Assembly: GCF_003095655.1 (NCBI RefSeq)
Contig: NZ_CP029151.1
Location: 2,913,001 to 2,977,000 of the forward strand
Direction of reading: 5' to 3'
Source: Dokdonia sp. Dokd-P16
GTDB lineage: Bacteria; Bacteroidota; Bacteroidia; Flavobacteriales; Flavobacteriaceae
Length of the DNA: 64,000 nucleotides
Positions within the stretch are counted from its first letter, which is position 1, and each line of letters begins with the position of its first letter. Under the pieces are notes generated by a model, which was not told the origin of the DNA, ran no database searches, and saw only the letters and a list, made by a program, of their open reading frames with translations. Below are positions 3 through 61,849 of the stretch, piece by piece. A program made the position numbers and the translations under genes.

Positions 3-563
3 GCAGATAAAATAGCGGTAGTTCACGTTTCACGAGCACAAGATGCTTTTGATGCTCTCTCTAGTGGTGCAGATGGTCTCGTGCATATTTATAATGATGC
101 GCCTCTCACAGCAGCACAGCTCGCCATACTTAAGGAAGATGCAAACTTCTTTGTGATACCTACCATACTCACCACAGTATTGATTCAGCCTTTGTACTAC
201 AATAAAACAGCGGAAGAAACTGCCGAAATAGAAACGCGTCTCATCAAGGAAGTTAAGCGCTTATACGATGCAGGAATTCCGATACTAGCAGGTACGGATC
301 CGCCAAATGCCAATATTAATATAGGCAGCGATTTGTATAAAGAATTGGCTTTTTTCGCGAAAGCGGGATTACCCATAGAAGCAGTGCTCGCGAGTGCCAC
401 CTCATTACCAGCAGATAAGTTTTCTCTAGAGAACGTAGGTTATATAAAAGAAGGCTTTAAAGCAGATATGTTATTGCTTGATAAATCTCCTGTTGAAGAT
501 GTATTAAACATGAACTCGATAGCCAAAATCTGGAAAGAGGGCGTGCTTATCACACAAGAATAA
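3..563 (+). CDS. Amidohydrolase family protein, C-terminal part
   Basis: The frame is open from base 3 through the window edge, so the N-terminus lies upstream; the GTG at 81 is internal. The visible part has a metal-site type segment (GLVHIYNDAP), the GTD motif of the amidohydrolase barrel (ILAGTDPPN, the last metal ligand Asp), and the usual C-terminal composite-domain pattern (SATSLPADK, GYIKEGFKADMLLLDKSP). Members of this family, near imidazolonepropionase, hydrolyse cyclic amides or dipeptides; the substrate cannot be told from this fragment. A near-match of the window-wide palindrome lies in frame at 351-364 and encodes FAKA. The response regulator follows after 49 bp. Confidence 0.8.
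   Translation, partial: ADKIAVVHVSRAQDAFDALSSGADGLVHIYNDAPLTAAQLAILKEDANFFVIPTILTTVLIQPLYYNKTAEETAEIETRLIKEVKRLYDAGIPILAGTDPPNANINIGSDLYKELAFFAKAGLPIEAVLASATSLPADKFSLENVGYIKEGFKADMLLLDKSPVEDVLNMNSIAKIWKEGVLITQE
351..364. repeat. Near-match of the palindromic repeat
   Basis: TTTTTCGCGAAAGC, 12 of 14 bases of the core, with the left arm lost. In frame within the amidohydrolase gene (FFAKAG). It is 3.5 kb from the next copy, in phase with the spacing of the first half of the window. Confidence 0.5.
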
Positions 564-612
564 GGAATTAGTATTTTTACCTACATCAACAAAACCATCA
601 AATAACCAATCC

Positions 613-2561: not shown

Positions 2562-2619
2562 AAGTGAGCTTATTTATAAAACGATAGTTATTCGAAATTT
2601 GCTAATTGTGAGCGTTGTA

Positions 2620-3861: not shown

Positions 3862-3877
3862 AATGGGTGGTTGTGAG

Positions 3878-3897
3878 TACGCTTTCGCGAAAGCGTA
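3878..3897. repeat. Palindromic repeat copy, perfect 20 bp
   Basis: TACGCTTTCGCGAAAGCGTA, its own reverse complement. It lies 17 bp upstream of the pepT start and 72 bp before the chosen pyrD start, in a divergent intergenic region. First complete member of the family described in the findings. Confidence 0.97.
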
Positions 3898-3941
3898 AAA
3901 ATCATCATTCAGTTCTGCTTCAAAAATACCTCTTTTTGGAC

Positions 3942-3949: not shown

Positions 3950-3968
3950 CACCACAGAAACGACCGAA

Positions 3969-7612: not shown

Positions 7613-7632
7613 TACGCTTTCGCGAAAGCGTA
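7613..7632. repeat. Palindromic repeat copy, perfect 20 bp
   Basis: TACGCTTTCGCGAAAGCGTA in the divergent region between the GH13 gene and pyrR, about 30 bp upstream of the pyrR -7 box. Confidence 0.97.
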
Positions 7633-10860: not shown

Positions 10861-10880
10861 TACGCTTTCGCGAAAGCGTG
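10861..10880. repeat. Palindromic repeat copy, 19/20
   Basis: TACGCTTTCGCGAAAGCGTG, with the last base differing from consensus. It begins immediately after the stop of the preceding gene and about 107 bp before pdxH. Confidence 0.95.
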
Positions 10881-17509: not shown

Positions 17510-17523
17510 GCTTTCGCGAAAGC
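17510..17523. repeat. Palindromic repeat core with one arm
   Basis: GCTTTCGCGAAAGC followed by GTA on the right; the left arm is TTT instead of TAC. It begins 6 bp beyond the stop of the 332-aa membrane protein gene. Confidence 0.95.
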
Positions 17524-20431: not shown

Positions 20432-23400
20432 GTGTACAAAGTTAAAACAATAAGCCCTATCAAGAAATTTAAAAAAATAGCACTTCGCACACTTCTAGTG
20501 TTATTCTTGCTTTTTGGGCTCATTCTATTGTTGTTTTCTCTTCCCAGCGTTCAAACTCGAATTGCCAAGAGCGTTACAGAGCGCATTAATAACACCTATG
20601 GTACCAGTATACAAGTAGAACGTGTAGGTCTCAAATGGAATGGAGATGTCCTTGTAAAAGGAACATTAATTAAAGATCACAAGCAGGATACCATGATCTA
20701 CGTGAGAGAGCTTGCTACAAGTCTCTACAGCGTGCAGAAGGTGCTAGACAATAATATGGAGCTGGGCGATATTTCACTTGAAGGTGTAAACTTTTATCTC
20801 ACAAAGTATAAAGGCGAAGCTTCAGATAACTTAACGCTATTCTCACGCCAGTTTGCGACAAATACTCCTAAATCTGGAAAGGCTTTTATTATGTCTTCAG
20901 ATAATGTGGCAATTTCTGAAGGTCGATTTATGTATGTAAATGGAGATTTAGAAAACTCGTTAGTGCTCGATTATCAAGACCTTTCAACTAACTGGGAAGA
21001 TTTTTATCTCAATAGCAGTTCTGTAGATGCTCATATTGAATCACTATCATTTGATGCTATAAGAGGCTACCAGATAAGATCGCTAGATGGAACTTTTCAC
21101 TATGATCCAGATTTAATAACGCTCAAAGATTTTTCACTTACAACAGATTTTTCTGCTATAGAGGGTGATATCAAGTTAGATACCTCAGATGGAGCGCTAG
21201 ATGATTTTAATACGCTAGTGGAGGTGGATGCCGCTTTCGCGAAAGCTAAAATATCTACTAATGATATACGCCCATTTTATAGAGAGATTGCGCCAGACAT
21301 TGATTTAGATATATCTGGGAATGTAAATGGACACCTTAATGACTTTAGAGTGCCAAATCTTAAAGTAACAGGATTAGGGAATTCTGTGATAGAAGGTGAT
21401 GTTTATTTTGACGGAGTAGTGAGCGGTGATGATTTTAGAATATCTGGAAATTATAATAAGCTTGAAACCAATTATTTTGATTTAAAAAGATTGTTGCCAG
21501 ACGTACTCTCTTCCTTGCCAGCAGAAATGTCAAAATTAGGTCAAGTATCTTTCCGAGGTGCTAACGCGGTTACGCTTTCTACAGTTGTATCCGAAGGTGA
21601 TATTACCACAAACTTAGGTGATATCTCACTGAATCTTTTATTGAAAGGATTGAGAGATGCAGATAATGCAGGCTATGAGGGGAATGTAAAGTTCGATAAC
21701 TTTAACTTAGGTAAACTGCTAGATGATAAGCGACTGGGGAAGACCACCTTTGACATGGATGTTGAGGGAAAAGGATTTATACAAGAAACCATAAACACAA
21801 AGCTCTCTGGAAGCATAAGAAGTATAGAATATAATAACTATGTCTATAAACATATTACGGTCTTTGGAAATCTTAAAGCGCCAGTTTTTGATGGAGAGTT
21901 ATTGCTTGATGATCCTAATGCAAAAGCAAAACTTAACGGATTAATAGATATCTCAAAAGAGTTTAATAGCTACGATCTAGAAGCTCAAATTGACTATGCA
22001 GATCTTAAAATGCTCAATTTTATTAATGATAGCATTTCTATCCTTAGGGGTAATGTAGTCATTGATATGAAAGGTACAAATGTAGAGGACGTCTATGGTA
22101 GAATTTCCTTTGCAGATGCTAGTTATCAAAATAAGAATAATACCTACAGCTTTAAAGATTTTGAAATCACCTCAAAGTTTGACGCAAAGAAAGTGCGTAC
22201 CATTGATATCAACTCCACAGAGATTATAAGTGGAGAGGTTCGAGGTGTTTTTAAATTTAATGAAGTAGTACCATTATTTAAAAATGCTATTGGGAGCTTA
22301 TATACAAACTATCAGCCAGAAATTCTTACACAAGATCAGTTTATGGATTTTGAGTTTACCATCTTTAATAAGATAGTAGCCATATTTGTTCCCGAGTTAG
22401 ATTTTGAGCCAGAAACAATCATACGAGGTAGTGTGGTGGCAAATGATTCTGAATTTAAACTTACGTTCAAGTCGCCTAAGATTGATGCTTTTGGCTATAT
22501 GGCAAAAGATATTGAAATACGTGTAGATAATAAGAACCCTTTATTTAATACTTACGTAGCTGCAGATAGTATAAATGCAGGTTTCTATGCAGTATCAGAT
22601 TTTAATCTTATTAATGTTACTCTAAAGGATACATTATTCATGAGGTCAGAATTTAAAGGTGGTAAGCGCAACGATGATTCCTTTGATCTCTCTTTATATC
22701 ACACCATTAACGCAGAAGGAAACTCTGTGTTAGGATTTAAGAAATCAAAAATTATCTTTAAAGAGAAACCTTGGTTTATCAATGAGGAAAATGATAGAAA
22801 AAACAGCGTAGTCTTTGATAATAATTTTAAGGACATCGATATTAATACACTCGTATTAAGTCATCAAGATGAGCGTATTGATCTTAAGGGACAGCTCAGG
22901 GATAGCACCTACAAGGATATCAAAGCCAATTTTAAAAATGTTGACCTTGCCAAGGTAACACCAGATCTTGACAGTCTTGATTTAGGAGGACGTATCAATG
23001 GTAAACTCGATATCTTACAAAAGAACGGTGCTTATTTGCCAAATACGTCTCTTGCCATTAAAGACTTTTCGGTAAACGGGACTAATCTTGGTCAGCTGGA
23101 CTTAAATGTTACTGGTAATGCAACACTTTCAAAATATAGTATAAAATCTAAGTTAGAGCGCGATGGTCTCCGTTCTTTAACAGCAGATGGAAGTATAGAT
23201 GCTTCGGGAAAAGTGCCTTATATTGATATGGATGTAGGACTCAGTGATTTAGATTTAAGCCCCTTTAACCCGATGGGTAAAGGAGTTATAGATCAAATAA
23301 GAGGACTAGCAAGCGGAGAGGCAAAAGTAGTAGGTGATTACAGAAATCCTGACATTAATGGGAATCTCACGCTAGAGAATGCGGGAATTGCCATTCCTTA

Positions 23401-24903: not shown

Positions 24904-24923
24904 TACGCTTTCGCGAAAGCGTA
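24904..24923. repeat. Palindromic repeat copy, perfect 20 bp
   Basis: TACGCTTTCGCGAAAGCGTA, beginning 12 bp after the stop of the tamB-like gene, in the region before pfkA. Confidence 0.97.
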
Positions 24924-33744: not shown

Positions 33745-33764
33745 TACGCTTTCGCGAAAGCGTA
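33745..33764. repeat. Palindromic repeat copy, perfect 20 bp
   Basis: TACGCTTTCGCGAAAGCGTA in the 47-bp convergent gap between the HMG-CoA lyase and radical-SAM genes, where it could also act as a hairpin at both 3' ends. Confidence 0.97.
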
Positions 33765-33782: not shown

Positions 33783-35960
33783 TTATATGACGAGGAGTCC
33801 TGCTTCTCGCAGACTTAGCATAGCCTTCGAATACCAGAATAACTCAAAATTTTCTTGCGTTTCCTCATATGAAGTCTTGAGTGCTGCGTAAGTCGGTAAC
33901 TTATCTTGATTTGGGCTCGCGATTTCTAGCATATCAATTAGCCAAAGTGCATCCTGAGTATCTACCGTAATTTGTGTAGTTCCTGTTTGATCGTGAAATG
34001 TAAGTTCTGTGAGTTCGCGTTTTTTCTTCTTAAATGTTCTCTGCGTGGGAGCAAAACCAAGCCAGAGAATTCTAGAGGTAGATTTTGTGCTTAACTGCAA
34101 TTCGTCTTGAAGGCTATCTTCTATCACATGCGGGTGTATGATTGTGCGAGGAACCTCAAAGTCAAACCATTCTTGCAAGCCTTCATCAAATCCAATACCG
34201 TGCATGTAATTGAATAGTGATTTCTTAAGTCCGTAACTGAATTTGCTATGGTCTATTCCTGTGCTATCACTAAAGTCCACATCATTATTTGCAAAGGTAA
34301 TCTCATTGTAATGTGGAGTTACTCCGTAGCTCTCCGGGTCTTTGCCTACAGGGCTGTGTGTGGTAAGTGCAAATTGGTGCCAGAATCCTGATTGTATAAT
34401 GCCTAACTCAAAAAGCTGGCGCACCATCTCAAGACTATCTATCGTTTCTTGCTCGGTTTGAGTAGGATACCCATACATCAAGTAGGAGTGCACCATAATA
34501 TCTGCCTCTGTAAAGTTGAGTGTGACTTGAGCAACTTGTGCAACAGTTACTCCTTTATCGATAAGTTTTAATAGTCTATCTGAAGCGACTTCCAGTCCGC
34601 CAGAAACGGCAATACAACCAGAGGCTTTAAGGAGTCTACATAAGTCTTTAGTGAAGTTTTTTTCAAACCTGATGTTTGTCCACCAGGTGACCACCAGTTC
34701 ACGTTTGATTATTTCTAGCGCAAGGGCTTTCATTAATGCTGGTGGTGCGGCTTCATCCACAAAGTGGAAACCAGTTTCTCCTGTTTGTGCTACAAGCGCT
34801 TCCATACGATCTACGAGAATACTCGCAGCGATGGGCTCGTAAATTTTTATATAATCTAACGAAATATCACAAAAGGTACATTTACCCCAATAGCAACCAT
34901 GCGCCATGGTTAGTTTGTTCCAGCGTCCATCACTCCACAAACTGTGCATAGGATTTGCAATCTCAATCACAGAGACATACTGATCAAGCAATAAATCTGA
35001 ATAGTCGGGAGTGCCGAGATATGCTTGTTTATAATCTTGACGGAGCGTGTTATTCTTGTAAACAACTTCACCATTTTCTAGAATGAATGTGCGCTTATAG
35101 GTAGGGTTTTCAACGTTTTGAACAACATCTTCTACAAGAAGTTCTACTGGAAGTTCGCCATCATCTAAGGTGATGTAATCTATAAATTCAAAGACTCTTG
35201 TGTCTTTTAATTCTCGTAATTCTGTATTAGGGAAACCACCTCCCATAGCCACTTTGACTGATGGATAGTGTTCTTTAATCCACTGCCCACATCTAAAAGC
35301 GCTGTATAGATTTCCTGGAAATGGAACCGACAGTAATATTAGTTTTGGTACGCTTTCGCGAAAGCGTGCTTCTAAAATCTCTATAGTAATCTCATCTACA
35401 ATAGTGAGGTCATCTTGTAGCGAGGTATATAATTCATCAAAAGAGTTTGCACTCTGACCCAAACGCTCTGCATAGCGACTAAACCCAAAATTAGGATCAA
35501 TACACTCCACAATAAAATCTGAGAGATCTTCTAGAAAAAGTGTGGCAAGGTGTTTTGCTTTGTCTTGCATTCCCATCTCACCAAAAGCCCACTCCATATC
35601 ATCTAGCTGATCAAATCGAGAAGCACGTGGTAAGAAGTTGCCCGTGCATATTTGCCTAGCGATGGTTTGATTATGTCCTTGTAAAAAGGAAACAACCTCA
35701 TCAAGTAGCTTTATATATGTATCTCGCATAGCGTAGATACGCTTGCAATTATCTGAAACAATCGTGTCATGCTCGTGAGCAATCTCAAACAGCCTTGTAA
35801 ATTCCTTTGCCGAAAATAGTTGCAAAATCACCTCTATACCAAGATCCATCTGGAATGATGAGATATCCTTAGTGTTTAAAAACCCTTTAATATATGCCGT
35901 AGCAGGATAAGGGGTGTTGAGTTGCGTAAATGGCGGAGTGATGAGTAAAATATCTTTCAA
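33783..35960 (-). CDS. B12-binding-type radical SAM protein
   Basis: 725 aa. The N-terminal half resembles a cobalamin-binding domain (MKDILLITPPFTQLNTPYPA start, IKEHYPSVKVAMGGGFPN). The radical SAM centre is C356-x4-C361-x2-C364 (HGCYWGKCTFCD), one residue longer than the usual C-x3-C-x2-C, followed by GFHFVDEAAPP, CIAVSGGLEVAS and SYLMYGYPTQTEQET. Reaction unknown. A 20-bp repeat copy with one mismatch at 35349-35368 is read as RFRESV. The gene is isolated between a convergent partner and an NTF2-like gene. Confidence 0.88.
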   Translation of the reverse strand: MKDILLITPPFTQLNTPYPATAYIKGFLNTKDISSFQMDLGIEVILQLFSAKEFTRLFEIAHEHDTIVSDNCKRIYAMRDTYIKLLDEVVSFLQGHNQTIARQICTGNFLPRASRFDQLDDMEWAFGEMGMQDKAKHLATLFLEDLSDFIVECIDPNFGFSRYAERLGQSANSFDELYTSLQDDLTIVDEITIEILEARFRESVPKLILLSVPFPGNLYSAFRCGQWIKEHYPSVKVAMGGGFPNTELRELKDTRVFEFIDYITLDDGELPVELLVEDVVQNVENPTYKRTFILENGEVVYKNNTLRQDYKQAYLGTPDYSDLLLDQYVSVIEIANPMHSLWSDGRWNKLTMAHGCYWGKCTFCDISLDYIKIYEPIAASILVDRMEALVAQTGETGFHFVDEAAPPALMKALALEIIKRELVVTWWTNIRFEKNFTKDLCRLLKASGCIAVSGGLEVASDRLLKLIDKGVTVAQVAQVTLNFTEADIMVHSYLMYGYPTQTEQETIDSLEMVRQLFELGIIQSGFWHQFALTTHSPVGKDPESYGVTPHYNEITFANNDVDFSDSTGIDHSKFSYGLKKSLFNYMHGIGFDEGLQEWFDFEVPRTIIHPHVIEDSLQDELQLSTKSTSRILWLGFAPTQRTFKKKKRELTELTFHDQTGTTQITVDTQDALWLIDMLEIASPNQDKLPTYAALKTSYEETQENFELFWYSKAMLSLREAGLLVI
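35349..35368. repeat. Palindromic repeat copy, 19/20, inside radical SAM gene
   Basis: TACGCTTTCGCGAAAGCGTG. The coding strand reads it in the third frame, giving Arg-Phe-Arg-Glu-Ser-Val. The widest in-gene copy, keeping almost the full 20 bp. Confidence 0.96.
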
Positions 35961-36601: not shown

Positions 36602-36621
36602 TACACTTTCGCGAAAGCGTA
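36602..36621. repeat. Palindromic repeat copy, 19/20
   Basis: TACACTTTCGCGAAAGCGTA, with one substitution in the left arm (A for G). It begins 14 bp beyond the stop of the M28 peptidase gene. Confidence 0.95.
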
Positions 36622-38507: not shown

Positions 38508-40244
38508 TTACAAGTTCATTATCATCTTTTTTACACCATTAGAAACATGAGTAATTGTAAATGAGTGATCTGTGAGATTTGCTTGTAGTGTGGCGGTTTC
38601 TGTATCGCTTTTCCAGCTAATTTCTAATTTTCCATTATCATGACTAGCTATCGCCATATCGCCAGAAAATGCAGTAGATGTATTACGCAAGCGCAGCATG
38701 TCTAATTGTAATAATACGACTTGTTTTTCTAGTCCGCGCTCAATGTCTTCTTGTGTTAATGTTGTTCTATTAATTTCTTTATGACCTCCAGTACCAGCAG
38801 CGTCTGCCGCCTCATAATCATTCTTTCCTGCAAAAAGGTCTAGATACCAAACCTGCGGGATTCCAGGCATAAATATTTGTAAAGCACGAGCAAGTAGAAG
38901 CTTGCGGTCATCTTCGCCTAAGGCGCTGTAAAACGTAGCGTTTACTTGATAGTAGGAGATTTTATTCCCTTCGGGATCATAGATATTCTTTACACGTCCG
39001 CCACGATCTAATATCGTTTCAATAATGTGTTCAATTTCGGCGTCTTTGAGCAGTCCTGGATGGTTGTTTCCTTGAGCATCTGTAATTCCTTTAAGGTCGA
39101 GTACGGGAATCCCGTCATGGCAACCTAGCATATTTACGGTTTTATAACCTTTTGCAATAACTTCTTGTGCCCATTTTATAAAAGCTGCAGTGTCTCCAGT
39201 TTCAATGGTGTGAATAACAAGCCCAGGGAAAAAGAAGTCATAGATTTGGTATCCTTCAGAAGCTACTTCGTCGTGTAGGCCTAATCCATATTCTGAGTGA
39301 ATTTCTGGCAATAAAGTAAGATCATATTTTTGAGCAATCTGGTTGATACGCTCTAGATATGTCCACGTACCTGGTTTGTTGAAAAAGTTAGTTTCGCCCA
39401 CTTCTTTATGCAAATAAGCAAAGGCATCAAGACGCAAGATTTTACAACCAAAATCGGCTACTTTTTTTAGTGTTTCATCATAAAAATCCCACACCATTTC
39501 CGAGTTTCCATTCACATCCATTTGCCCTAGGTAAGAACGTTGTTGCTCTATCATCTGTAAAAGCTTAGGTAGGTGAGGTGTTACGCTTTCGCGAAAGCGC
39601 ACTTCAGAAATATCAAATCCACCAGCAATCGCATTATTTACGAGCGCTACGGTATCCTTTTTATCTTCTTCTGACAGTTCGTTTAAAGTTTCTAAGTCTT
39701 CAACTGTTATCGCGTGATACGTAATTTGCTGATAGAAAGTATTCCAGTATGGACGTTCTGTACCATCGGGAAATAACACTTTAAGCACAGGCAGACCTGG
39801 CTTGCGCATAAATAATTTATTGAGATGTTCCTTTTTGGGAACTGCTACGCCGTTGTTGTAAGAAGCTGTGTTGCCCTCCCAGAAGGCATTCCAATCAATA
39901 AAAAAGTCTTTGTATGGTGATGCATCACCCTTTTCTAGAATATCCTTAAACTGTGGTGAGCCTACAGATAGGTGATTAAGTACAATGTCAAACTTAAGCA
40001 TGACATCTAGTTTTTTAAGCGCATCGAGATCCTCTTGCGAGACAAGCTCTGTATTGATGTTGTAATCAACAATCGAAAATCCGCGATCTAGGTCGCTATT
40101 AAAAAATGTAGGTAAGACGTAAAATAGGGAGAATACATCCTGTAATTCTGGGCGTTGCAGTAAAGCTACGGTATCGCTTAATTTTTTTCCTATACTATCT
40201 GGGTATGCATTAAGCATTACACCGTTTGGGATTGTTGACTTCAT
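38508..40244 (-). CDS. GH13_18 sucrose phosphorylase-type protein
   Basis: 578 aa. The subfamily pattern is clear: FDIVLNHLSVGSPQF, nucleophile Asp in KILRLDAFAYLHKEVG, acid/base Glu in LLPEIHSEYG, and GCHDGIPVLDLKG, which is typical of sucrose, sucrose 6F-phosphate, and glucosylglycerate phosphorylases. These split an alpha-glucoside with phosphate to give glucose 1-phosphate in the cytoplasm; substrate choice within the subfamily cannot be made. A repeat copy at 39582-39600 is read as RFRESV. Confidence 0.88.
   Translation of the reverse strand: MKSTIPNGVMLNAYPDSIGKKLSDTVALLQRPELQDVFSLFYVLPTFFNSDLDRGFSIVDYNINTELVSQEDLDALKKLDVMLKFDIVLNHLSVGSPQFKDILEKGDASPYKDFFIDWNAFWEGNTASYNNGVAVPKKEHLNKLFMRKPGLPVLKVLFPDGTERPYWNTFYQQITYHAITVEDLETLNELSEEDKKDTVALVNNAIAGGFDISEVRFRESVTPHLPKLLQMIEQQRSYLGQMDVNGNSEMVWDFYDETLKKVADFGCKILRLDAFAYLHKEVGETNFFNKPGTWTYLERINQIAQKYDLTLLPEIHSEYGLGLHDEVASEGYQIYDFFFPGLVIHTIETGDTAAFIKWAQEVIAKGYKTVNMLGCHDGIPVLDLKGITDAQGNNHPGLLKDAEIEHIIETILDRGGRVKNIYDPEGNKISYYQVNATFYSALGEDDRKLLLARALQIFMPGIPQVWYLDLFAGKNDYEAADAAGTGGHKEINRTTLTQEDIERGLEKQVVLLQLDMLRLRNTSTAFSGDMAIASHDNGKLEISWKSDTETATLQANLTDHSFTITHVSNGVKKMIMNL
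39582..39600. repeat. Palindromic repeat copy inside GH13_18 gene
   Basis: TAC plus the perfect 14-bp core plus GC; only the right outer arm departs from the 20-bp form. Read as Arg-Phe-Arg-Glu-Ser-Val, the same peptide as in the radical SAM gene. Confidence 0.95.
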
Positions 40245-41335: not shown

Positions 41336-41350
41336 TACGCTTTCGCGAAA
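41336..41350. repeat. Broken copy of the palindromic repeat
   Basis: TACGCTTTCGCGAAA, 15 bp of the palindrome, then unrelated sequence; CGAAAGC recurs at 41396-41402 after an insert of about 45 bp. See the tandem repeat entry. Confidence 0.85.
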
Positions 41351-46085: not shown

Positions 46086-46105
46086 TACACTTTCGCGAAA
46101 GCGTA
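46086..46105. repeat. Palindromic repeat copy, 19/20
   Basis: TACACTTTCGCGAAAGCGTA, the same left-arm variant as the copy at 36602. It lies between the pyc stop and its terminator. Confidence 0.95.
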
Positions 46106-49667: not shown

Positions 49668-49761
49668 GATAACATTAAATTTTCGCGCAAGCGAACATAA
49701 ACACTTTTAAGTCATTTTCAATACGTAATCTATTACACATGTTTAAGTGACTTATTAAGGT

Positions 49762-51579
49762 TTATTGTGCGTCAAAGCGATATTTTCCAGCTTGCTCAAC
49801 ATCTGCAGCAATCTGGTTGCGTAAGCCTATTACATTAGGCTGGTTTGTATACTTTGTAAAACGCTTAAGACCCATAAGCATCATGCGTTGCTCATCACCT
49901 TCGGCAAAAGAGATAATCGCTTCTTTAGCCTTCGTCTGGATAATATCTACTGCGTTAAATAAGTATAGTTGAGTCATTGCAAGTTGTGTTGCTTGGCTCT
50001 CAAGACCAGAACGCTTGATATTCTTCTCAGTACGTAAGATTGCACTCTCAGACATATAGATTTCAATCAAGATATCTGCAGCAGCCATTAGTAATTGCTG
50101 GTGTTGCTCAAGTTCTGTACCGTACTTCTTTGCAGCAGATCCTGCTACCATTAAGAATACTTTCTTAAGACGCTTAAGAAGATCTTTCTCTTCAGATAAC
50201 GTTTCAGAAAAGTCTGGTGTATCAAAAGAAGGAATACCCATAAGCTCTTCACCTACAGCAGTAGCAGGCCCCATAAAGTCTACATGACCTTTCATTGCCT
50301 TCTTTACCATCATTCCTACCGCTAGCATACGGTTAATCTCGTTTGTACCTTCATAGATACGAGCGATACGAGCATCTCTCCAAGCAGATTCCATAGGAGC
50401 ATCTGCACTAAAGCCCATTCCTCCAAAAACTTGGATACCTTCATCTGTTGTATTCTGTACATCTTCAGATACGGCAACCTTAAGGATAGAACACTCAATA
50501 GCATACTCCTCAACACCTTTAAGCTCTGCTTCTTGGTGTGTATTTCCTTCTGCATGACGCATAGCGATACGATCCTCTATGTTCTTTGCAGCTCTGTATG
50601 ATGCAGACTCATCTACATATACATTGGTAGCCATTATAGCAAGTTTTTGCTTGATTGCTCCAAAGTTTACAATAGGAGTTTTAAACTGTACACGCTCCTT
50701 AGCATACGTTACTGCTTCATTTACTACACGACGTTGTGCATCAAGACAAGCAGCTGCAAGTTTAATACGTCCTACGTTAAGTGCGTTCATCGCAATTTTA
50801 AATCCATTACCTCGCTCAGAAAGCATATTATCTGCAGATACTACTGTATCGTTAAAGAATACCTGACGTGTAGAAGAAGAGTGGATACCTAATTTTTTCT
50901 CTTCGTCACCTAGTGTGATTCCGTTAGAAGGATCATTTTCTACAATAAATCCTGTAATGTTCTTATCGTCTTCTATTCTTGCGAATACAATAAAAAGGTT
51001 ACAGAATCCTGCGTTTGAAATCCACATTTTCTGTCCAGAAATCTTGTAAGATTTTCCATCTTCAGAAAGAACTGCTTTTGTTTTACCTGAGTTTGCATCA
51101 GATCCAGCACCTGGTTCTGTAAGACAGTAAGCACCAAACCACTCACCAGTAGCAAGTTTAGGTACGTATTTTTGTTTTTGCGCTTCGTTACCGTATAAAG
51201 TAATTGGCATGGTACCAATTCCTGTATGTGCTCCAAAGGCTGTACTAAAAGATCCAGTTGCACCAGAGATGTAATCACAAACAAGCATTGTAGATACAAA
51301 GCCCATTCCTAATCCACCATACTCTTCTGGTACTGCAACACCTAGTAAACCAAGTTCACCAGCGGTACGCATTGTCTCCTCTGTGTATGCATAATCTTTC
51401 TTTTCAAAACGCTCCCAGTGTGCCCATAGATCACGATCTACAAACTCCTTAGTACTGTCACGCATCATTTTCTGCTCCTCGTCAAGGTCTTCCATTGTGA
51501 AGACATCTTCACAAGCTGTTTCTTTTACGATAAATTGTCCACCGCGTAGGATATCTTTTTTTGTTTCTTCTGTTGCCAT
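49762..51579 (-). CDS. fadE: Acyl-CoA dehydrogenase (FadE-type)
   Basis: 605 aa, the long form. First beta-oxidation step, FAD-dependent. Motifs: YCLTEPGAGSDANSGKTKA, KMWISNAGFCNLFIVFARIE, IQVFGGMGFSADAPMESAWRDARIARIYEGTNEINR near the middle. The C-terminal extension of about 200 residues is typical of the long FadE/VLCAD-like group. The third gene of a run fadN-fadA-fadE, the same order as in Bacillus subtilis. Confidence 0.93.
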   Translation of the reverse strand: MATEETKKDILRGGQFIVKETACEDVFTMEDLDEEQKMMRDSTKEFVDRDLWAHWERFEKKDYAYTEETMRTAGELGLLGVAVPEEYGGLGMGFVSTMLVCDYISGATGSFSTAFGAHTGIGTMPITLYGNEAQKQKYVPKLATGEWFGAYCLTEPGAGSDANSGKTKAVLSEDGKSYKISGQKMWISNAGFCNLFIVFARIEDDKNITGFIVENDPSNGITLGDEEKKLGIHSSSTRQVFFNDTVVSADNMLSERGNGFKIAMNALNVGRIKLAAACLDAQRRVVNEAVTYAKERVQFKTPIVNFGAIKQKLAIMATNVYVDESASYRAAKNIEDRIAMRHAEGNTHQEAELKGVEEYAIECSILKVAVSEDVQNTTDEGIQVFGGMGFSADAPMESAWRDARIARIYEGTNEINRMLAVGMMVKKAMKGHVDFMGPATAVGEELMGIPSFDTPDFSETLSEEKDLLKRLKKVFLMVAGSAAKKYGTELEQHQQLLMAAADILIEIYMSESAILRTEKNIKRSGLESQATQLAMTQLYLFNAVDIIQTKAKEAIISFAEGDEQRMMLMGLKRFTKYTNQPNVIGLRNQIAADVEQAGKYRFDAQ

Positions 51580-51689: not shown

Positions 51690-51703
51690 GCTTTCGCGAA
51701 AGC
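51690..51703. repeat. Palindromic repeat core between fadA and fadE
   Basis: GCTTTCGCGAAAGC, with inner C and G flanks but no TA arms. It begins 53 bp beyond the thiolase stop. Confidence 0.96.
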
Positions 51704-53104: not shown

Positions 53105-55513
53105 TTAGTTACGTAAAGGCTTCCCTTTCTGTAGCATATGCTGGATACGCTCTAGTGATTTTCTCTCAGTAGCTAGTGATAAGAACGCTTCGCGTTCAAG
53201 ATCTAATAAGTACTGCTCAGAAACTCTTGTAGGCTCAGAAAGATCTCCACCTGCCATAACGTAAGCAAGTTTATTTGCAATCTTTTTATCGTGCTCAGAG
53301 ATGTAGTGAGAAGCTTCCATAGAATCTGTTCCTACTAAGAACATTCCTAATGCCTGCTTACCTAATACAAGTACATCATTACGTTTTACCGGTTGTGTAT
53401 ATCCTTGATCTGCCATCTGGCGTGCTACAGCCTTAGCCGTTGCAATCTGACGATCACGGTTTACCACAACGATATCTTTACCGTGCTTTAGGATATTAAG
53501 GTCATAGGCTTCATGAGCAGATGTAGAGACTTTTGCCATACCAATGGTAAGGAAGTGCTCTTGAAGTACATTTAACTGTACATCACCTTTATCAAACTTA
53601 TCTGATGCTCTTAAAGCCATTTCCTTAGATCCACCACCACCAGGGATTACACCTACACCAAACTCAACGAGTCCAATATAAGATTCGGCAGCAGCTACTA
53701 CGCGGTCTGCGTGCAGTGTCATCTCACATCCACCACCTAAAGTCATACCGTGAGGTGCAACAACTGTAGGGATAGCAGAGTAACGAAGACGCATACACGT
53801 ATCTTGGAAATATTTTATAGCAGCGTTAAGCTCATCATATTCTTGCTCTACGGCATACATGAAAATCATTCCAATATTTGCTCCTACAGAGAAGTTAGTA
53901 CCTTGATTTCCTACTACTAGTCCGTCGTAATCCTTTTCGGCCATATCAATAGCCTTATTTAATCCTGCAAGAACATCACCTCCTATAGAGTTCATCTTAG
54001 AGCGGAATTCTACATTTAAGATTCCGTCTCCTAGATCTTGTACAGATACTCCAGAGTTTGAGAATACTTCAGTTTGTTTTCTAATGTTGTCAAGAATGAT
54101 AAATGAATCTTGACCAGGTTTTTTTACATGCGCTTTCGCGGAAGCGGAATATACATGCGTAGCTCCATCTTTTACTGAATAGAATGTATCGATTCCAGCA
54201 GCAGTCATATCTGTTACCCAAGTGGCAACCTCAAGACCTTCTGCTTTCATTAGTTCGATACCTTTTTCTACACCAACGGCATCCCAAATCTGGAATGGTC
54301 CGTGCTCCCAGCCAAAACCAGCTTTCATAGCATCATCTATCTTGTAAAGCTCATCTGTGATTTCTGGAATACGATTTTGTACGTATGCGAAAAGGTGTGC
54401 AAAAGACTTGCGGTAAAATTCACCAGCCTTGTCCTTACCACCTACAAGCACTTTAAAACGATCGTATACATTATCGATAGTTTTAGTAAGCTCTAAGGTT
54501 GCAAATTTTGCTCTTTTTGCAGAGCGGTAATCCATAGTATCTAGGTCTAGCGTAAGGATTTCTTTCTGTCCTGTCGCATCAACATTCTTTTTATAGAATC
54601 CTTGACCAGTTTTTGAACCTAACCATTTATTTTCCATCATGGTACTGATGAAACCTGGTAAGGCAAATAATTCTTTTCTTTCGTCCTTAGGACAGTTTTC
54701 TGAGATACCGTTTGCAACATGTACAAGGGTATCAAGACCAACAACATCTACAGTACGGAACGTAGCCGACTTAGGACGACCTATTACTGGTCCCGTGAGT
54801 TTATCTACTTCTTCAACCGTCATTCCCATCTCCTTAACCGTGTGGAATAATGACATGATAGAGAAGATACCGATACGGTTACCTATAAACGCTGGAGTAT
54901 CTTTTGCTACTACAGATGTTTTTCCTAAAAATTGCTCACCGTAGTTATTTAAGAAATCAAGTACGCTCTGGTCTGTTTTTGGTCCAGGGATGATTTCAAA
55001 TAATTTCAGGTAACGCGCAGGGTTAAAGAAGTGTGTCCCACAGAAATGCTTCTGGAAATCTTCACTACGACCCTCAGACATAAACTGGATAGGAATACCA
55101 GAAGTGTTTGAAGTAATAAGTGTGCCAGGAGTTCTGTGTTTTTCTAAGTTTTCAAAAACTTGCTTTTTGATATCAAGTCTTTCTACAACTACTTCTATAA
55201 TCCAGTCTACGTCTTTCACTTTTGCAATATCATCCTCAAGGTTTCCTGTGGTGATTCTACTTGCAAAAGATTGGTTGTAAATAGGAGAAGGCTTACTTTT
55301 TAAAGCAGTAGTAAGTGCATCGTTTACCATACGGTTACGAACTACTTTATCTTCAAGTGTAAGACCTTTTGCTTGTTCTTTAGCATTTAGTTCTCTAGGT
55401 ACGATGTCTAGTAAGAGTACATCTACACCGATATTTGCAAAATGACAAGCGATACCGCTTCCCATAATTCCGCTACCGATGACGGCTACTTTCTTTATTC
55501 TACGTTTTGCCAT
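53105..55513 (-). CDS. fadN: 3-hydroxyacyl-CoA dehydrogenase / enoyl-CoA hydratase (FadN-type)
   Basis: 802 aa. Domain order is dehydrogenase first (NAD loop VAVIGSGIMGSGIACHFANIG at the start, FCGTHFFNPARYLKLFEIIPG) and hydratase last (MTLGGGCEMTLHADRVVAAAE, LVEFGVGVIPGGGGSKEMALR). That is the FadN order of Bacillus, not the FadB order of E. coli. It does the second and third beta-oxidation steps. Its start overlaps the MarR stop by one base. An imperfect repeat core at 54132-54145 encodes ASAKA. Confidence 0.94.
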   Translation of the reverse strand: MAKRRIKKVAVIGSGIMGSGIACHFANIGVDVLLLDIVPRELNAKEQAKGLTLEDKVVRNRMVNDALTTALKSKPSPIYNQSFASRITTGNLEDDIAKVKDVDWIIEVVVERLDIKKQVFENLEKHRTPGTLITSNTSGIPIQFMSEGRSEDFQKHFCGTHFFNPARYLKLFEIIPGPKTDQSVLDFLNNYGEQFLGKTSVVAKDTPAFIGNRIGIFSIMSLFHTVKEMGMTVEEVDKLTGPVIGRPKSATFRTVDVVGLDTLVHVANGISENCPKDERKELFALPGFISTMMENKWLGSKTGQGFYKKNVDATGQKEILTLDLDTMDYRSAKRAKFATLELTKTIDNVYDRFKVLVGGKDKAGEFYRKSFAHLFAYVQNRIPEITDELYKIDDAMKAGFGWEHGPFQIWDAVGVEKGIELMKAEGLEVATWVTDMTAAGIDTFYSVKDGATHVYSASAKAHVKKPGQDSFIILDNIRKQTEVFSNSGVSVQDLGDGILNVEFRSKMNSIGGDVLAGLNKAIDMAEKDYDGLVVGNQGTNFSVGANIGMIFMYAVEQEYDELNAAIKYFQDTCMRLRYSAIPTVVAPHGMTLGGGCEMTLHADRVVAAAESYIGLVEFGVGVIPGGGGSKEMALRASDKFDKGDVQLNVLQEHFLTIGMAKVSTSAHEAYDLNILKHGKDIVVVNRDRQIATAKAVARQMADQGYTQPVKRNDVLVLGKQALGMFLVGTDSMEASHYISEHDKKIANKLAYVMAGGDLSEPTRVSEQYLLDLEREAFLSLATERKSLERIQHMLQKGKPLRN
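54132..54145. repeat. Imperfect palindromic repeat core inside fadN
   Basis: GCTTTCGCGGAAGC, one substitution (G for A) that breaks the palindrome. Read on the coding strand as ASAKA. Confidence 0.85.
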
Positions 55514-57477: not shown

Positions 57478-57497
57478 TACGCTTTCGCGAAAGCGTA
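57478..57497. repeat. Palindromic repeat copy, perfect 20 bp
   Basis: TACGCTTTCGCGAAAGCGTA, beginning 6 bp after the stop of the kinase gene. Confidence 0.97.
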
Positions 57498-57683: not shown

Positions 57684-60602
57684 ATGTTGAAAATTACCCA
57701 GTTATTGCTTACAAGTTTTACTATCTGTATAGCAAGTACAGTGTATGCGCAGGACCTTCCTGTGGCATCTATAAAAAAGAGTATTGAAACATTTAAAGAA
57801 AATGCTCGCGGTCCTTACAAAAAGATAGAATGGTTTTGTAAAGATGGTACACAGCGTGAAGCCCGTGACCCTTGTCCAGACGATATAGGTGGTGGTGTAC
57901 AGCACGCTAGTTATAGCGATGATCTTATTGCTCTTGGTAAAAAGCATCATTTATATGTAGCAGATATACTTGCAAATACAGACAAAGAACTTTTTTGGGA
58001 TGTGGCAAATGACCATAGCCGCATTAAACAATATCAACTCGCTCGCTACTTAGGCAGTGTAGATGATGGATGGGTGCAGCGCAAATCTCAATTTTATAGA
58101 GGCGCAGTACAGTCTGAAGATGAAGAGGCATGGGGTATCGACTTTTATGAGTGGTTACTGCGCAGCGATACGAGACTAAGACAGAATTACTACCTATTAC
58201 GTCAGACATTGCGAGATATACCACACGATGGAGATAGTAATATTGCACAACGGATGCGTAGCGAGTCAAAAATCCTTGCCGAAGATTATCCTAAGTTTAT
58301 GGATGCTCGTATTAAAATACATGGTAAGCCTAGCGTGAGCGATATCCAGATGGTTCAAGAGTTTAGGGCAAAGCATAAAGGCAATCTCTCTGATAAATTA
58401 AAATCTCAGTTTGATACTCTAGAAAAAACTATGGCTGCTTATTATGCACCTATTAACTTTAAGGAATTGCAAGCACAAGTAAATCGTGTATCTGTAAAAA
58501 ATGATCTTACAGAACGTATTGAAAGTTTTCTTTCAAACAGTGAGCGTGACGCCTCTCCTGAAATTTTAGTCCCAGAAATTGCAGATATTTTATGCTTAAT
58601 CCGTCAGGAGATAGAAACTTTAGATAGAGGAAGTGATAAGCTTACCATGCTTGATCTTTCTAACGAACTTGAAGATATACTTCTTATAAAAACACAAGAG
58701 TGGAAACCAGAGACGCTTAAGAGTTTGCTATATAAGATTCAGACGTTGGGTTATGCCGCAACGGGAACAGGACTTATAGAAATGAATGAGTGGGCGGCTG
58801 TGGAGCCTTATTTAATAGCAGATAGTTATCATAATGATAGAAGCGTAGCACAACTTAATGATTTTCTTGCTACATCAAGAGGACTTGTAGAGTGGAGTGC
58901 TTCTCAGGTAAAAGCAAACTATCAGGAGATTGTAGATATCTATGCGCAATTTGAACCTAAGGCATATGGTTTTATAGATGATCGTGTACGTTCATCTGTA
59001 GCGCTAGACCTAGGAGAGAGTGTAAGCACCTTAGGAGCTTTTATCGCAAAGCATTCAGGTCTTGAGAATAAAGTAATGGATATAGATGGACAGTCTTCTG
59101 TAAGAGGATTAAACCCTGGGTATGCTTATGGTGAACTTGTGGTTATAGAAGGATCTCCAGAAGGAGTGGAGGTAGATACGGAAAAGATTTACGTTTTTGA
59201 AAAACCACCATCAGATCTTAAACCCGTTGCGGGAATTATGACCGTATCAGAAGGTAACCTTGTTTCTCACGTGCAATTACTAGCTAGAAACTTAGGTATT
59301 CCTAATGCGGCATTATCACAAGAAAACCTTCAGGATTTGAATAAGTATAGCGGTAAGAACGTGTTTTATGCAGTTTCAAATAAAGGAAGCGTTATCATAA
59401 AAGGCGAAGACGATATTACAGATGAGGAACGTGAGTTATTTACAAAGAAACAACGTTCTACGAGCCAAGTAACGGTACCTGTAGAGAAGATTCAGCTTGA
59501 TAAAAAGAATATTATAAACATGCGAGATCTTGATGCAAGCGCATCTGGAAAACTTGTAGGTCCTAAAGCGGCAAATCTTGGTCAGCTTAAAAAGATGTTT
59601 CCAGAACAGGTGGTAGAAGGTCTTGTGATTCCTTTTGGAATATTTAAAGATCACATGGACCAAAAAATGGCCGATTATGACGGTTCTTACTGGGAGTTTT
59701 TAAATAACGCTTTCGCGAAAGCGGAAGACATGAAAGCCTCTGGTGCATCATCAAAAGAAATAGAGACCTTCCAACTAGAAGAGTTGAAGAGGTTACGTGA
59801 TGCGATTAATGTAATGACACTGAAACCGTCATTTGTGAATAGCTTGAGAGCAGATTTCCAGAAAGTATTTAAATCACCTATTGGTAAAACACCAGTGTTC
59901 TTACGAAGTGACACTAATATGGAAGACCTTGAAGAGTTTACAGGCGCAGGATTGAACCTGACACTCTTTAATATCTTAGATGAGGATAAAATCTTAAAAG
60001 GGATTAAGGATGTCTGGGCTTCTCCATACACGGAGCGTAGCTTTAAGTGGCGTCAGCAATATTTAAGTAACCCAGAGAATGTATTTCCATCCATTTTAAT
60101 TATACCATCTGTAGATGTTGCTTATAGTGGAGTAATGATTACTAAAGGGATTAATCAAGGAACGGATGAGGATCTTACAATTGCCTTTAGCCGTGGAGCA
60201 GGAGGTGCTGTAGATGGCCAAGCTGCCGAAACTAGACTTGTGACAGCAACGGGAAGCAGATTACTTTCTCCTGCACGTCAAGCAGATTATATACGCTTAC
60301 CAGCAACAGGAGGAGTAGAGAAGAATATAGCAACCTTTGATAAGCAAATTTTAAACGAGAAAAACATAAATGATATACGTGCAATAGCTCAGTCTATAAG
60401 AACACGCCTTCCAGAAATGACAGGATCTACTTATGATGGAGCTTATGATGTTGAGCTAGGATTTGAGAATGATAAACTGTGGTTGTTCCAGATTAGACCT
60501 TTCGTAGAAAATAAAACGGCCAAGACTTCTGAATATTTAGAATCTATATCGCCTGTAATTAATGAAGACTTTTTAATAACCTTAGACGCACCAATAAACT
60601 AA
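57684..60602 (+). CDS. Exported glucan-water-dikinase-like (PEP/pyruvate-binding) protein
   Basis: 972 aa. N-terminal signal peptide MLKITQLLLTSFTICIASTVYA. Residues about 30-480 form an uncharacterised helical region. Then a swivelling phosphohistidine domain with a histidine at residue 529 (NLVSHVQLLARNLGIP), then an ATP-grasp domain with LVGPKAANLGQLKK, VIPFGIFKDHM, RSDTNMEDLEEFTGAG (R741), VWASPYTERSFKW and LFQIRPFVE. Histidine domain before ATP-grasp, with PFGIF and EDLEEFTGAG-like segments, is the order and wording of plant alpha-glucan water dikinases; PPDK has the reverse order. A signal peptide on a nucleotide-dependent enzyme is unexpected. It is coupled to the next gene. A 14-bp repeat core at 59709-59722 is read as AFAKA. 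Confidence 0.85.
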   Translation: MLKITQLLLTSFTICIASTVYAQDLPVASIKKSIETFKENARGPYKKIEWFCKDGTQREARDPCPDDIGGGVQHASYSDDLIALGKKHHLYVADILANTDKELFWDVANDHSRIKQYQLARYLGSVDDGWVQRKSQFYRGAVQSEDEEAWGIDFYEWLLRSDTRLRQNYYLLRQTLRDIPHDGDSNIAQRMRSESKILAEDYPKFMDARIKIHGKPSVSDIQMVQEFRAKHKGNLSDKLKSQFDTLEKTMAAYYAPINFKELQAQVNRVSVKNDLTERIESFLSNSERDASPEILVPEIADILCLIRQEIETLDRGSDKLTMLDLSNELEDILLIKTQEWKPETLKSLLYKIQTLGYAATGTGLIEMNEWAAVEPYLIADSYHNDRSVAQLNDFLATSRGLVEWSASQVKANYQEIVDIYAQFEPKAYGFIDDRVRSSVALDLGESVSTLGAFIAKHSGLENKVMDIDGQSSVRGLNPGYAYGELVVIEGSPEGVEVDTEKIYVFEKPPSDLKPVAGIMTVSEGNLVSHVQLLARNLGIPNAALSQENLQDLNKYSGKNVFYAVSNKGSVIIKGEDDITDEERELFTKKQRSTSQVTVPVEKIQLDKKNIINMRDLDASASGKLVGPKAANLGQLKKMFPEQVVEGLVIPFGIFKDHMDQKMADYDGSYWEFLNNAFAKAEDMKASGASSKEIETFQLEELKRLRDAINVMTLKPSFVNSLRADFQKVFKSPIGKTPVFLRSDTNMEDLEEFTGAGLNLTLFNILDEDKILKGIKDVWASPYTERSFKWRQQYLSNPENVFPSILIIPSVDVAYSGVMITKGINQGTDEDLTIAFSRGAGGAVDGQAAETRLVTATGSRLLSPARQADYIRLPATGGVEKNIATFDKQILNEKNINDIRAIAQSIRTRLPEMTGSTYDGAYDVELGFENDKLWLFQIRPFVENKTAKTSEYLESISPVINEDFLITLDAPIN
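59709..59722. repeat. Palindromic repeat core inside the dikinase-like gene
   Basis: GCTTTCGCGAAAGC, in frame as Ala-Phe-Ala-Lys-Ala, between the ATP-grasp subsegments FLNN and EDMKAS. Confidence 0.97.
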
Positions 60603-61849
60603 TGAAGACATTTATCACATTTACATTTATTGCATTATCCACACTTGTTGCCACGATGATCTATCCTATTGATGGTTATGATAGCACTGGAATCAAAAGA
60701 TTGTATCGTCTTCAAAAGATGGAGAAAGATAGCATCACTAATAAACGTATTCCTAACGGAGCTTACTTGAAACTAAATGATATTAAGTTGAATTTGCTTT
60801 CGCGAAAGCAGGATTCTCTTGGTGCACTTCTCGTAGAAGATCCAGAGTTTGCACGTGCCATTGCAAGAATCACTCCCGGCGGAAACTACTCCCTTGCAGT
60901 TCTTGATATGAGCGATCCAGAAAACTTGAAATATGCAGCCCACAGAGAGAATGCTGGTTACCAGCCAGGAAGTGTAGGTAAAATTGCTGTACTCAACGGA
61001 TTTTTTAATGAGCTTGCAGAAACTTATCCAGATGATTTTGCACTGCGCACAGGACTTATGTGTAATAAGCGAGTGAAAGCACGTTATTGGGGTACAGGTG
61101 ATCATCATACGATTCCTATTTATGATATCGATAAAGACAAGCTTACAAAGCGTCAAGTAGTGGCAAGTGATGAATTCTCATTATACGAGTGGGCAGATCA
61201 TATGGTGTCTGTGAGTAACAATGGAGCTGCGAGTGTATTATACAGAGAAACGATGTTGCTAGACGCCTTTGGAAGAGATTATGCCGACTTAACAGAAGAG
61301 GAGTCTGAAAATTACTTTGTAGAGACAGACAGAGACTCTCTTACAAGCCAAGCAAACCGAGTTGTGAATCAGCCACTAAGAGAGCTAGGAATAACAGAAG
61401 ACGACTGGAGACTAGGAGGTATGTTTACAAGACCTGCTGGGAAGTATGTAGGTCGTGAAGGTGGAAGTATAGGTACTCCTAAAGGGCTCATGAAATTTCT
61501 AGTAGCCTTAGAGCAAGGAAACGTAATAGATGAAGAAAGCTCACTTGAGATGAAGCGTTTATTATACATGACAGATAGAAGAATACGTTATGCACAATCT
61601 AATAGACTTGATGATGCTGCTGTATTTTTTAAATCTGGATCTTTTTATAAATGTGATCGCAGTAAAGACCCAGGATGTGAAGATTATGCAGGTAATGTAT
61701 ATAACTACATGAACTCCGTAATCATTGTAGAACAACCTAATGGAAAGAAATACATCGTTTGCTTAATGACTAATGTTCTTAATAAAAACTCTGCTGGAGC
61801 TCATATGTATCTTGCAAGTAGTATTGATGAGGTGGTAAATCCATCTTAG
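60602..61849 (+). CDS. Exported serine hydrolase of class A beta-lactamase/PBP fold
   Basis: 415 aa. An N-terminal hydrophobic segment (TFITFTFIALSTLVATMI) acts as signal or anchor. The three active-site motifs are in order: S124-V-G-K127 (QPGSVGKIAVL), S205-N-N207 (VSVSNNGA) and K344-S-G346 (FKSGSFYKC). These define penicillin-recognising serine enzymes, but the long N-terminal part and KSG in place of KTG do not match a resistance enzyme. Its ATG overlaps the stop of the dikinase-like gene (TAATG), so expression is coupled. A 14-bp repeat core at 60796-60809 is read in the remaining frame as LSRK. Confidence 0.85.
   Translation: MKTFITFTFIALSTLVATMIYPIDGYDSTGIKRLYRLQKMEKDSITNKRIPNGAYLKLNDIKLNLLSRKQDSLGALLVEDPEFARAIARITPGGNYSLAVLDMSDPENLKYAAHRENAGYQPGSVGKIAVLNGFFNELAETYPDDFALRTGLMCNKRVKARYWGTGDHHTIPIYDIDKDKLTKRQVVASDEFSLYEWADHMVSVSNNGAASVLYRETMLLDAFGRDYADLTEEESENYFVETDRDSLTSQANRVVNQPLRELGITEDDWRLGGMFTRPAGKYVGREGGSIGTPKGLMKFLVALEQGNVIDEESSLEMKRLLYMTDRRIRYAQSNRLDDAAVFFKSGSFYKCDRSKDPGCEDYAGNVYNYMNSVIIVEQPNGKKYIVCLMTNVLNKNSAGAHMYLASSIDEVVNPS
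60796..60809. repeat. Palindromic repeat core inside the serine hydrolase gene
   Basis: GCTTTCGCGAAAGC, read as Leu-Ser-Arg-Lys. The only copy seen in this third frame. It is 1,087 bp from the previous copy, the shortest gap in the window. Confidence 0.97.

Follow-up and report, generated by a model that had tools for sequence, protein, structure and literature searches.

A directional 12-bp word, mostly doubled into a palindrome, is evenly repeated along the chromosomes of Dokdonia and two further genera

The stretch of DNA analysed here (the window) spans 64 kb of the chromosome of Dokdonia sp. Dokd-P16, from base 2,913,001 to base 2,977,000 of a single contig of 3,623,447 bp (genome G000). 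It harbors many copies of a 14-bp palindrome, GCTTTCGCGAAAGC, which a first-pass annotation of the same DNA had taken as the basic element. According to our data, the elementary unit is instead the directional word 5'-GCTTNCGCGAAA-3', and the palindrome is composed of two overlapping copies of it on opposite strands. These units are abundant, obey a defined sequence rule, preferentially occur in both orientations at the same site, and lie evenly spaced, approximately 3 kb apart, in all three lineages in which they are dense; moreover, they are absent from one mobile cassette array.

In the window, the perfect 14-mer is present in 15 copies, all starting exactly where the first-pass annotation had placed them. 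Up to two mismatches, 20 matches are found, whereas 100 dinucleotide shuffles give 0.17 on average and never more than 2, in agreement with its claim that chance expectation is far below one. The five near copies start at positions 351, 36605, 41339, 46089, and 54132; four of them had been located correctly, the third having been reported at 41336. The complete 20-bp form is present at positions 3878, 7613, 24904, 33745, and 57478, which confirms the five copies previously described, and all five are intergenic according to the open reading frame (ORF) calls. The statement that only intergenic copies are complete thus holds within the window but not in a wider sample of the same genome (115 sites), where 20 complete copies are intergenic and 5 are coding, i.e., a bias and not a rule.

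To this window we added 20 evenly spread 20-kb stretches of the same genome, for a total of 464 kb. This sample contains 116 perfect, 11 one-mismatch, and 18 two-mismatch copies of the 14-mer, while approximately 200 control palindromes with a permuted half-site average 0, 0.06, and 0.83, respectively. Each of the 20 stretches holds two to eight palindromic sites, with no restriction to, or exclusion from, a chromosomal domain, and inspection of the sampled stretches revealed no clear gradient from origin to terminus. In the whole genome, the 14-mer is present in 808 copies and its reversed control word in none; the 20-mer is present in 151 copies, and a 22-mer form, TTACGCTTTCGCGAAAGCGTAA (TTAC...GTAA), in 31 copies distributed round the chromosome with gaps of up to about 320 kb. 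The picture of a highly iterated, genome-wide, lineage-specific motif lying both in genes and in gaps is therefore borne out: counts exceed expectation over the whole genome and the motif is not confined to the window, the two points on which the first-pass annotation had made its claim depend. The observation is real and had been understated. That annotation knew of no described function, and the 14-mer was found in none of 5.39 million open-access papers (subscription papers lie outside this coverage). Among the matches listed for shorter words of the motif, the titles concern other subjects, and among those listed for the literature on uptake sequences, no title names Dokdonia.

The elementary unit emerged when both arms were classified around each CGCG of 68 motif-rich loci (1.37 Mb); related species were entered separately, and the counts are not independent. 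Arms were defined as P (GCTTT), v (GCTT followed by A, C, or G), t (xxTTT without GC), or x (any other). The combination P-P was observed 284 times (0.02 expected by chance), P-t 76 times (0.20), P-v 9 times (0.07), and t-v 27 times (0.38), whereas the symmetric half-broken forms t-t and v-v were never found (0.58 and 0.06 expected, respectively); eight perfect arms fall outside the rule, being paired with an x arm and fitting no unit. A site thus requires GCTT in one arm and TTT in the opposite one, which defines GCTTNCGCGAAA, a directional word, as the unit. Altogether, the 1.37 Mb contains 396 unit sites, and both orientations are present in 284 of them, far above chance. All five variants of the first-pass annotation contain the unit, which, together with the arm classes, replaces the palindrome as the basic element.

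None of the 169 TTTCGCGAAA cores from the own genome (464 kb plus the stretches L001-L030) lacks GC on both sides, and GCTT[ACG]CGCGAAA is present in 13 copies in the 464 kb. One-mismatch 12-mers outside the tolerated N position number about eight, compared to an average of 1.4 (maximum 7) one-mismatch matches over all positions for 150 permuted 12-mers, and two-mismatch forms are at background (29 vs 25); the signal in the flanks has faded by about 14 bases from the site centre. The same 464 kb comprises 116 two-way and 35 one-way sites, 13 of the latter having A, C, or G at the N position. Genome-wide, GCTTNCGCGAAA occurs 998 times in forward and 992 times in reverse orientation (reversed control, 4 and 0), corresponding to 808 two-way and 374 one-way sites, approximately 1,180 in total. 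One-way sites amount to 367 in a second Dokdonia genome (G206), 290 in G190, 58 in G010, and 76 in G242. With respect to replication, the plus-strand share of the one-way units in the own-genome sample is 5 out of 11 in stretches of positive skew and 2 out of 7 in stretches of negative skew, both small counts.

The sites of the window are the following; palindromic sites are given without strand, gene positions (here and below) come from greedy ORF calling, and gene names in the window were assigned by eye.

353..364, minus strand: one-sided unit GCTTTCGCGAAA (variant 351 of the first-pass annotation), inside ORF 81-563
3881..3894: palindromic site, full 20-mer at 3878-3897, intergenic, kept in relatives
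7616..7629: palindromic site, full 20-mer at 7613-7632, between divergent ORFs, kept in relatives
10864..10877: palindromic site, 7 bp past a stop codon
14478..14491: palindromic site inside ORF 14184-15077 (Ppx/GppA-like), with substitutions in relatives
17510..17523: palindromic site, 6 bp past the stop of the minus-strand ORF 17529-18527
21233..21246: palindromic site in the long ORF 20432-24892 (TamB-like)
24907..24920: palindromic site, full 20-mer at 24904-24923, 15 bp past a stop codon
29538..29551: palindromic site in ORF 28589-29737
33748..33761: palindromic site, full 20-mer at 33745-33764, between convergent ORFs
35352..35365: palindromic site in ORF 33783-35960 (radical-SAM-like)
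36607..36618, minus strand: one-sided unit (variant 36605), intergenic
39585..39598: palindromic site in ORF 38508-40244
41339..41350, plus strand: one-sided unit (variant reported as 41336), intergenic
46091..46102, minus strand: one-sided unit (variant 46089), intergenic
49681..49692, minus strand: one-sided unit GCTTGCGCGAAA, absent from the first-pass annotation, between ORFs 46133-49585 and 49762-51579
51690..51703: palindromic site, intergenic
54134..54145, minus strand: one-sided unit GCTTCCGCGAAA (variant 54132), in ORF 53105-55513
57481..57494: palindromic site, full 20-mer at 57478-57497, 9 bp past a stop codon
59709..59722: palindromic site in ORF 57684-60602
60796..60809: palindromic site in ORF 60602-61849

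The even spacing of the units had previously been missed. In G000, the coefficient of variation (CV) of the spacing is 0.62, compared to 0.93 for random placement (151 units), and only 14 out of 130 spacings are shorter than 1 kb where 39 are expected. The other two lineages, the genera here labelled g11 and g191, behave in the same way (CV of 0.41 vs 0.88 for 41 units, and of 0.57 vs 0.86 for 34 units, each over 140 kb), and so do the other Dokdonia species, with 10 out of 94 spacings below 1 kb vs 25.5 expected, the sites being partly the same ones. One-way units, moreover, shun palindromes: 5 out of 35 lie within 1 kb of one, vs 13.9 at random (P=0.0005), and 12 of them fall in two long regions devoid of palindromes (82-119 kb and 258-285 kb), chosen as the longest seen among the first 100 sites. 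The first of these regions includes about 23 kb without any unit. This unit-free stretch (G000:C1, approximately 89,950-113,225, from L347:7934 to L348:11209) is an integron-like cassette array: a tyrosine recombinase on the minus strand (L347:7954-8775, PF00589) is followed by about 15 ORFs of at least 150 aa, parted by repeated units of 200-600 bp ending in CCGCACTCGCTTTATGYAGTGGCCTGTTR, and three of these ORFs begin with MQWPV because the repeat extends into them.

The phylogenetic distribution of the motif was checked in two samples, one of the family (299 genomes covering 236 genera) and one of the phylum (395 genomes). The 20-mer is present in all 18 Dokdonia genomes, with 4 to 254 copies each, and 61 of the 299 genomes of the family sample harbor at least one 14-mer. 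Only five of these are dense, belonging to three genera: Dokdonia (labelled g1; G000 with 808 copies and G206 with 857), g11 (G010 with 578 and G242 with 664), and g191 (G190 with 408). The remaining 233 genera hold at most 19 copies per genome, and in the phylum sample only the own genome exceeds six. In addition, 54 named loci (3-22 kb each) were retrieved via a protein labelled PPK by eye. The 11 Dokdonia loci and one metagenome-assembled genome matching G303 each have at least one 14-mer, which was not found in 10 Leeuwenhoekiella and one close relative (one stretch per genome), nor in the other 31 loci, two of which hold one 10-bp core. A search of 9-22 kb stretches of other genera for palindromes of 12-14 bp, gapped palindromes, and dispersed 13-mers did not retrieve any equally dense word. 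Non-palindromic 13-mers recur three to five times in some genera (e.g., L208, L213, L215, L219, and L283) and are probably local repeats.

In a tree of ParB (about 300 aa), g191 is placed beside Leeuwenhoekiella (local support 0.96) and near Dokdonia, and g11 elsewhere (0.95, on a long branch). If this placement, from one short protein, is right, the trait would have been either lost in Leeuwenhoekiella or moved between lineages. Five genomes have intermediate 12-mer counts, 43-64 by strand count; in G042 and G144, with 6 and 9 palindromes, one-way units predominate, in G076 (16) they make up half, and in G287 and G051 (19 and 17) most units are palindromic. These counts may reflect a recent gain, loss, or transfer. 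G144, which has 25 forward and 29 reverse GCTTNCGCGAAA units, belongs to another genus, and the palindrome GTAAAACGTTTTAC is present there twice in 20 kb (L217, G144:C1:1-20000).

Several genomes have from one to nine copies, clustered and with a recurring distance of 933 bp. Twenty such low-copy stretches proved to be largely homologous to one another (64-97% identity); the loci L031-L039, L041, L044, and L047 consist of metal-efflux DNA with the same range of identity across genera, and the ORFs (four stretches inspected, one locus by Pfam) code for RND efflux, outer-membrane efflux, and heavy-metal P-type ATPase proteins. The low-copy clusters are thus likely to represent transferred metal-resistance DNA, with the motif copies as probable fossils of a motif-rich donor. 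The idea that low-copy genomes carry a decayed resident system was rejected for the clusters examined, which appear to be transferred metal-efflux DNA. The recurring 933-bp pair lies at the OEP gene, whose predicted signal peptide reads AFAKAQ. Phage-like contigs of IMG/VR, among the 80 stretches listed of at least 120 matching ones, also carry several units: L122 (three units in 11.3 kb) encodes a head maturation protease and an endolysin; L092, L109, and L114 are one 38-kb contig with four units, L114 encoding a CI-like S24 repressor. Further unit-bearing contigs are L076 and L123 (one 31-kb contig), L091, and L105, phage-like by eye from their ORFs; L145 is another unit-bearing IMG/VR locus.

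The conservation of the sites was evaluated on alignments with the motif masked beforehand, since the motif itself can aid unmasked ones; the counts across relatives are non-independent. In G299 and G313, both 78% identical to the own genome, the 10-bp core is identical at 7 out of 8 and 7 out of 7 aligned coding sites and at 2 out of 3 and 2 out of 2 intergenic ones, respectively, compared to a fraction of 0.09-0.12 for control 10-mers. Site 17510 was scored as lost in G299 because of a shift in the masked alignment, though it is present in another alignment. In the closer G301 and G302, the core is kept at 18 out of 18 and 15 out of 15 sites (controls, 0.57-0.63 and 0.37-0.42). Few sites of distant species align once the motif is masked: in G304, G311, and G306 the core is kept at 1/2, 1/2, and 1/1 coding and at 2/3, 0/1, and 1/2 intergenic sites, respectively; without masking, the sole aligned site is kept in G206 and none out of three in G314 and G300. 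Hence, sites stay in place between the nearer species. At the one coding site compared in detail (14478, ORF 14184-15077), 12 out of 18 relatives, motif-free ones included, align without gaps and six with short gaps; here, the site changes by substitution and not by insertion.

Concerning the gene context, 61 out of 116 sites lie inside ORFs although about 90% of the DNA is ORF. The gap sites with both neighbours called (n=54) are distributed among tandem (38), divergent (10), and convergent (6) gaps, and in the tandem ones 30 out of 38 sites are closer to the upstream stop than to the downstream start. Nineteen of the 54 are within 30 bp after a stop codon. Sites 6-16 bp past stops (10864, 24907, 57481, and others) are far commoner than sites near starts.

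The leading explanation, although not a secure one and held by us tentatively, is that the units represent a self-DNA recognition signal acting in uptake and/or recombination. In this scenario, an asymmetric, sequence-specific putative protein would read GCTTNCGCGAAA during the uptake of conspecific DNA and/or homologous repair; about 70% of the sites are doubled on opposite strands, giving a palindrome of 14-22 bp that would be readable from either side, and one unit would be kept per approximately 3 kb so that nearly every fragment of own DNA bears the tag. Three elements of this scenario are inferred: a protein reader, its accessory nature, and a benefit through uptake or recombination. In Neisseria, the DNA uptake sequence (DUS) is described as a conserved element of the core genome that is absent from recent acquisitions, occupies permissive places, and has a spacing like that of conversion fragments (PMC2397512); the conservation of our motif and its permissive places parallel these features. 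As to recent acquisitions, one cassette array of about 23 kb is free of units and phage-like contigs have some. Uptake signals lie in ORFs for 65% in H. influenzae and 35% in the gonococcus and are less evenly spaced than compaction would need (PMC1939737); the uptake signal sequence (USS) has a spacing of about 1 kb (PMC7811141). Natural transformation is known in Riemerella, placed in the Flavobacteriaceae (PMC7965970).

Some data weigh against a self-recognition signal. Known uptake signals are non-palindromic and over-represented in a graded fashion at one to five mismatches (PMC1939737), whereas the Dokdonia signal has few one-mismatch forms and two-mismatch forms at background. PF00437 (pilus/type II secretion ATPase), the sole pilus family searched, is above the cut-off in four of 20 genomes, three of them motif-rich (G300, G306, and G242), and below it in five of eight motif-rich ones (G000, G206, G299, G010, and G190, three of which are single-contig); therefore, the usual pilus route appears to be missing in those five carriers. 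ComEC (PF03772) is present in all 15 genomes searched and, being equally present in motif-free genomes, does not discriminate. Furthermore, phage-like contigs carry units, which uptake does not require, and the most distant Dokdonia align at few sites and keep fewer.

The search for the reader covered a few candidates (ParB, the pilus ATPase, two methyltransferase families, ComEC, and genes next to close site pairs), none of which yielded one. The first-pass annotation had suggested looking for a co-occurring DNA-binding or methyltransferase gene; neither PF00145 nor PF01555 is common to the carriers. Seven of eight motif-rich genomes have a single ParB (G300 has two), so that there is no second copy in them, and the helix-turn-helix region of the carriers' ParB, compared by eye, resembles that of motif-free relatives. 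PF00145 is present in 5 out of 13 motif-rich genomes and PF01555 is above the cut-off in 2 out of 13; both are missing from seven, G000 included, these being the only two methyltransferase families searched. Where two sites lie within 800 bp of each other, none of the neighbouring genes, named by eye, resembles a reader.

A possible, if doubtful, alternative is that the motif is bound all along the chromosome by a protein that organises the nucleoid or acts in segregation or division control, the sites every 3 kb anchoring loops or loading a factor, in a role analogous to that of Noc and its binding sites (NBS), SlmA (SBS), and MatP (matS), but over the whole chromosome. The palindromic form of 14-22 bp suits a dimer, the sites occur all round the chromosome, imperfect copies are few, and no pilus is needed; even spacing is also expected of chromosome-compacting sequences (PMC1939737). 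The arm classes, with 27 t-v and neither t-t nor v-v, clash with a simple symmetric dimer, and the ParB data also count against this reading. Moreover, the sites of the known systems number about 23-70 and are confined to certain domains (approximately 70 palindromes of 14 bp for Noc and 24-52 sites for SlmA, both sparse near the terminus, and 23 matS) compared to about 1,180 here (PMC4726725, PMC3116907).

It is unlikely, though worth retaining as a live rival like the preceding one, that the word is a Chi-like sequence read by an end-processing machine of the RecBCD/AddAB type and doubled to work from both sides. The directional unit and its strong two-way preference (284/396) would fit such a role. 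Chi sites of E. coli are spaced at about 4.5 kb, a distance of the same order as the even spacing observed here, and phages can carry Chi just as phage-like contigs carry the unit. Known Chi sequences have five to eight bases, however, and our unit has 11 fixed ones; end-processing enzymes are expected to be widespread, yet three of 236 genera are dense, and the two strands are used equally (998 and 992).

The other three explanations are disfavoured. The first-pass annotation had compared the motif to highly iterated palindrome 1 (HIP1) as well as to uptake signals; the latter analogy survives as the leading, not secure, explanation, but it is very improbable that the motif resembles HIP1 in being the target of an orphan DNA methyltransferase and in being preserved through methylation-linked repair. 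The motif is an iterated palindrome with a CGCG/TCGCGA centre, and the HIP sequences of cyanobacteria follow their methyltransferases (PMC4390886). In our data, however, the counts of both centres outside the sites, TCGCGA (60 observed vs 58-69 expected on both strands) and TTCGCGAA, match or come close to expectation, and, within the two families searched, PF00145 is missing from 8 and PF01555 (over the cut-off) from 11 of the 13 motif-rich genomes; to our knowledge, a methyltransferase target of 12-14 bp is unheard of. A transcription terminator or RNA hairpin is hardly credible: the RNA folds into an 8-bp stem with a CGCG loop and 19 of 54 intergenic sites follow a stop codon within 30 bp, but TTTT is present downstream in 2 out of 19 cases and on the mirrored side in 1 out of 19, more than half of the sites (61 out of 116) fall within ORFs, and there are no fewer divergent gaps (10) than convergent ones (6). 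We rejected this reading, as a foldable RNA without other support. Least probable of all, to a nearly negligible degree, is an inserted mobile repeat resembling a repetitive extragenic palindrome or a miniature inverted-repeat transposable element, which the many near-identical copies might recall, given that sites are conserved place by place, that little signal is left in the flanks at about 14 bases from the centre, and that at site 14478 12 of 18 relatives are gap-free and none of the other six misses a block of 14-22 bp.

The self-recognition signal could even represent a new class of chromosome-wide self-tag, a suggestion that we advance with reserve and consider rather doubtful: a directional 12-bp word, maintained about every 3 kb by selection and preferably two-way. 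Its reader would be an accessory factor, transferred among genera of Flavobacteriaceae, that works through neither pilus uptake nor methylation nor a site system of the ParB/TetR type. Sequences written across whole bacterial chromosomes are of few kinds (uptake signals, Chi, HIP1, domain markers), and we know of no such genome-wide signal in Bacteroidota. The Dokdonia signal is long, has few imperfect copies, is even and dense in three genera, and is missing from close relatives; finding its reader would yield either the first uptake or recombination signal of Bacteroidota or a new chromosome-organising system.

Compared to known systems, the Dokdonia signal is like the DUS of Neisseriaceae and the USS of Pasteurellaceae in having a directional unit of about 9-12 bp with a copy number of the order of one thousand, located both within and between genes but preferentially between them, conserved between species and spaced on the kb scale (PMC2397512, PMC1939737, PMC7811141). 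As in those systems, the unit itself is non-palindromic according to the 12-mer rule, although 284 of 396 sites hold both orientations. Unlike them, it is mostly two-way, has few imperfect copies, has units about 3 kb apart that avoid close pairs, belongs to Bacteroidota, and has no pilus ATPase over the cut-off in several carriers; evenness and sharpness were compared by description. Like HIP1 of cyanobacteria (GCGATCGC), it forms a palindrome that recurs many times over the whole genome, coding and non-coding parts alike, but it measures 12-22 bp instead of 8, its unit is non-palindromic, its centre is not enriched alone, and neither methyltransferase family tested is common to its carriers. 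The sites of Noc, SlmA, and MatP are likewise palindromic or near-palindromic chromosomal sites of 12-14 bp, scattered (PMC4726725, PMC3116907), whereas the minimal unit in Dokdonia is asymmetric and its approximately 1,180 sites lie round the chromosome. Like Chi, the signal is directional, dense, and found on phages; unlike Chi, it is longer, mostly two-way, and dense in three sampled genera only. The signal also resembles Chi in that it apparently has to be readable from both sides, and chromosome-organising sites in its evenness and dimer-like form.

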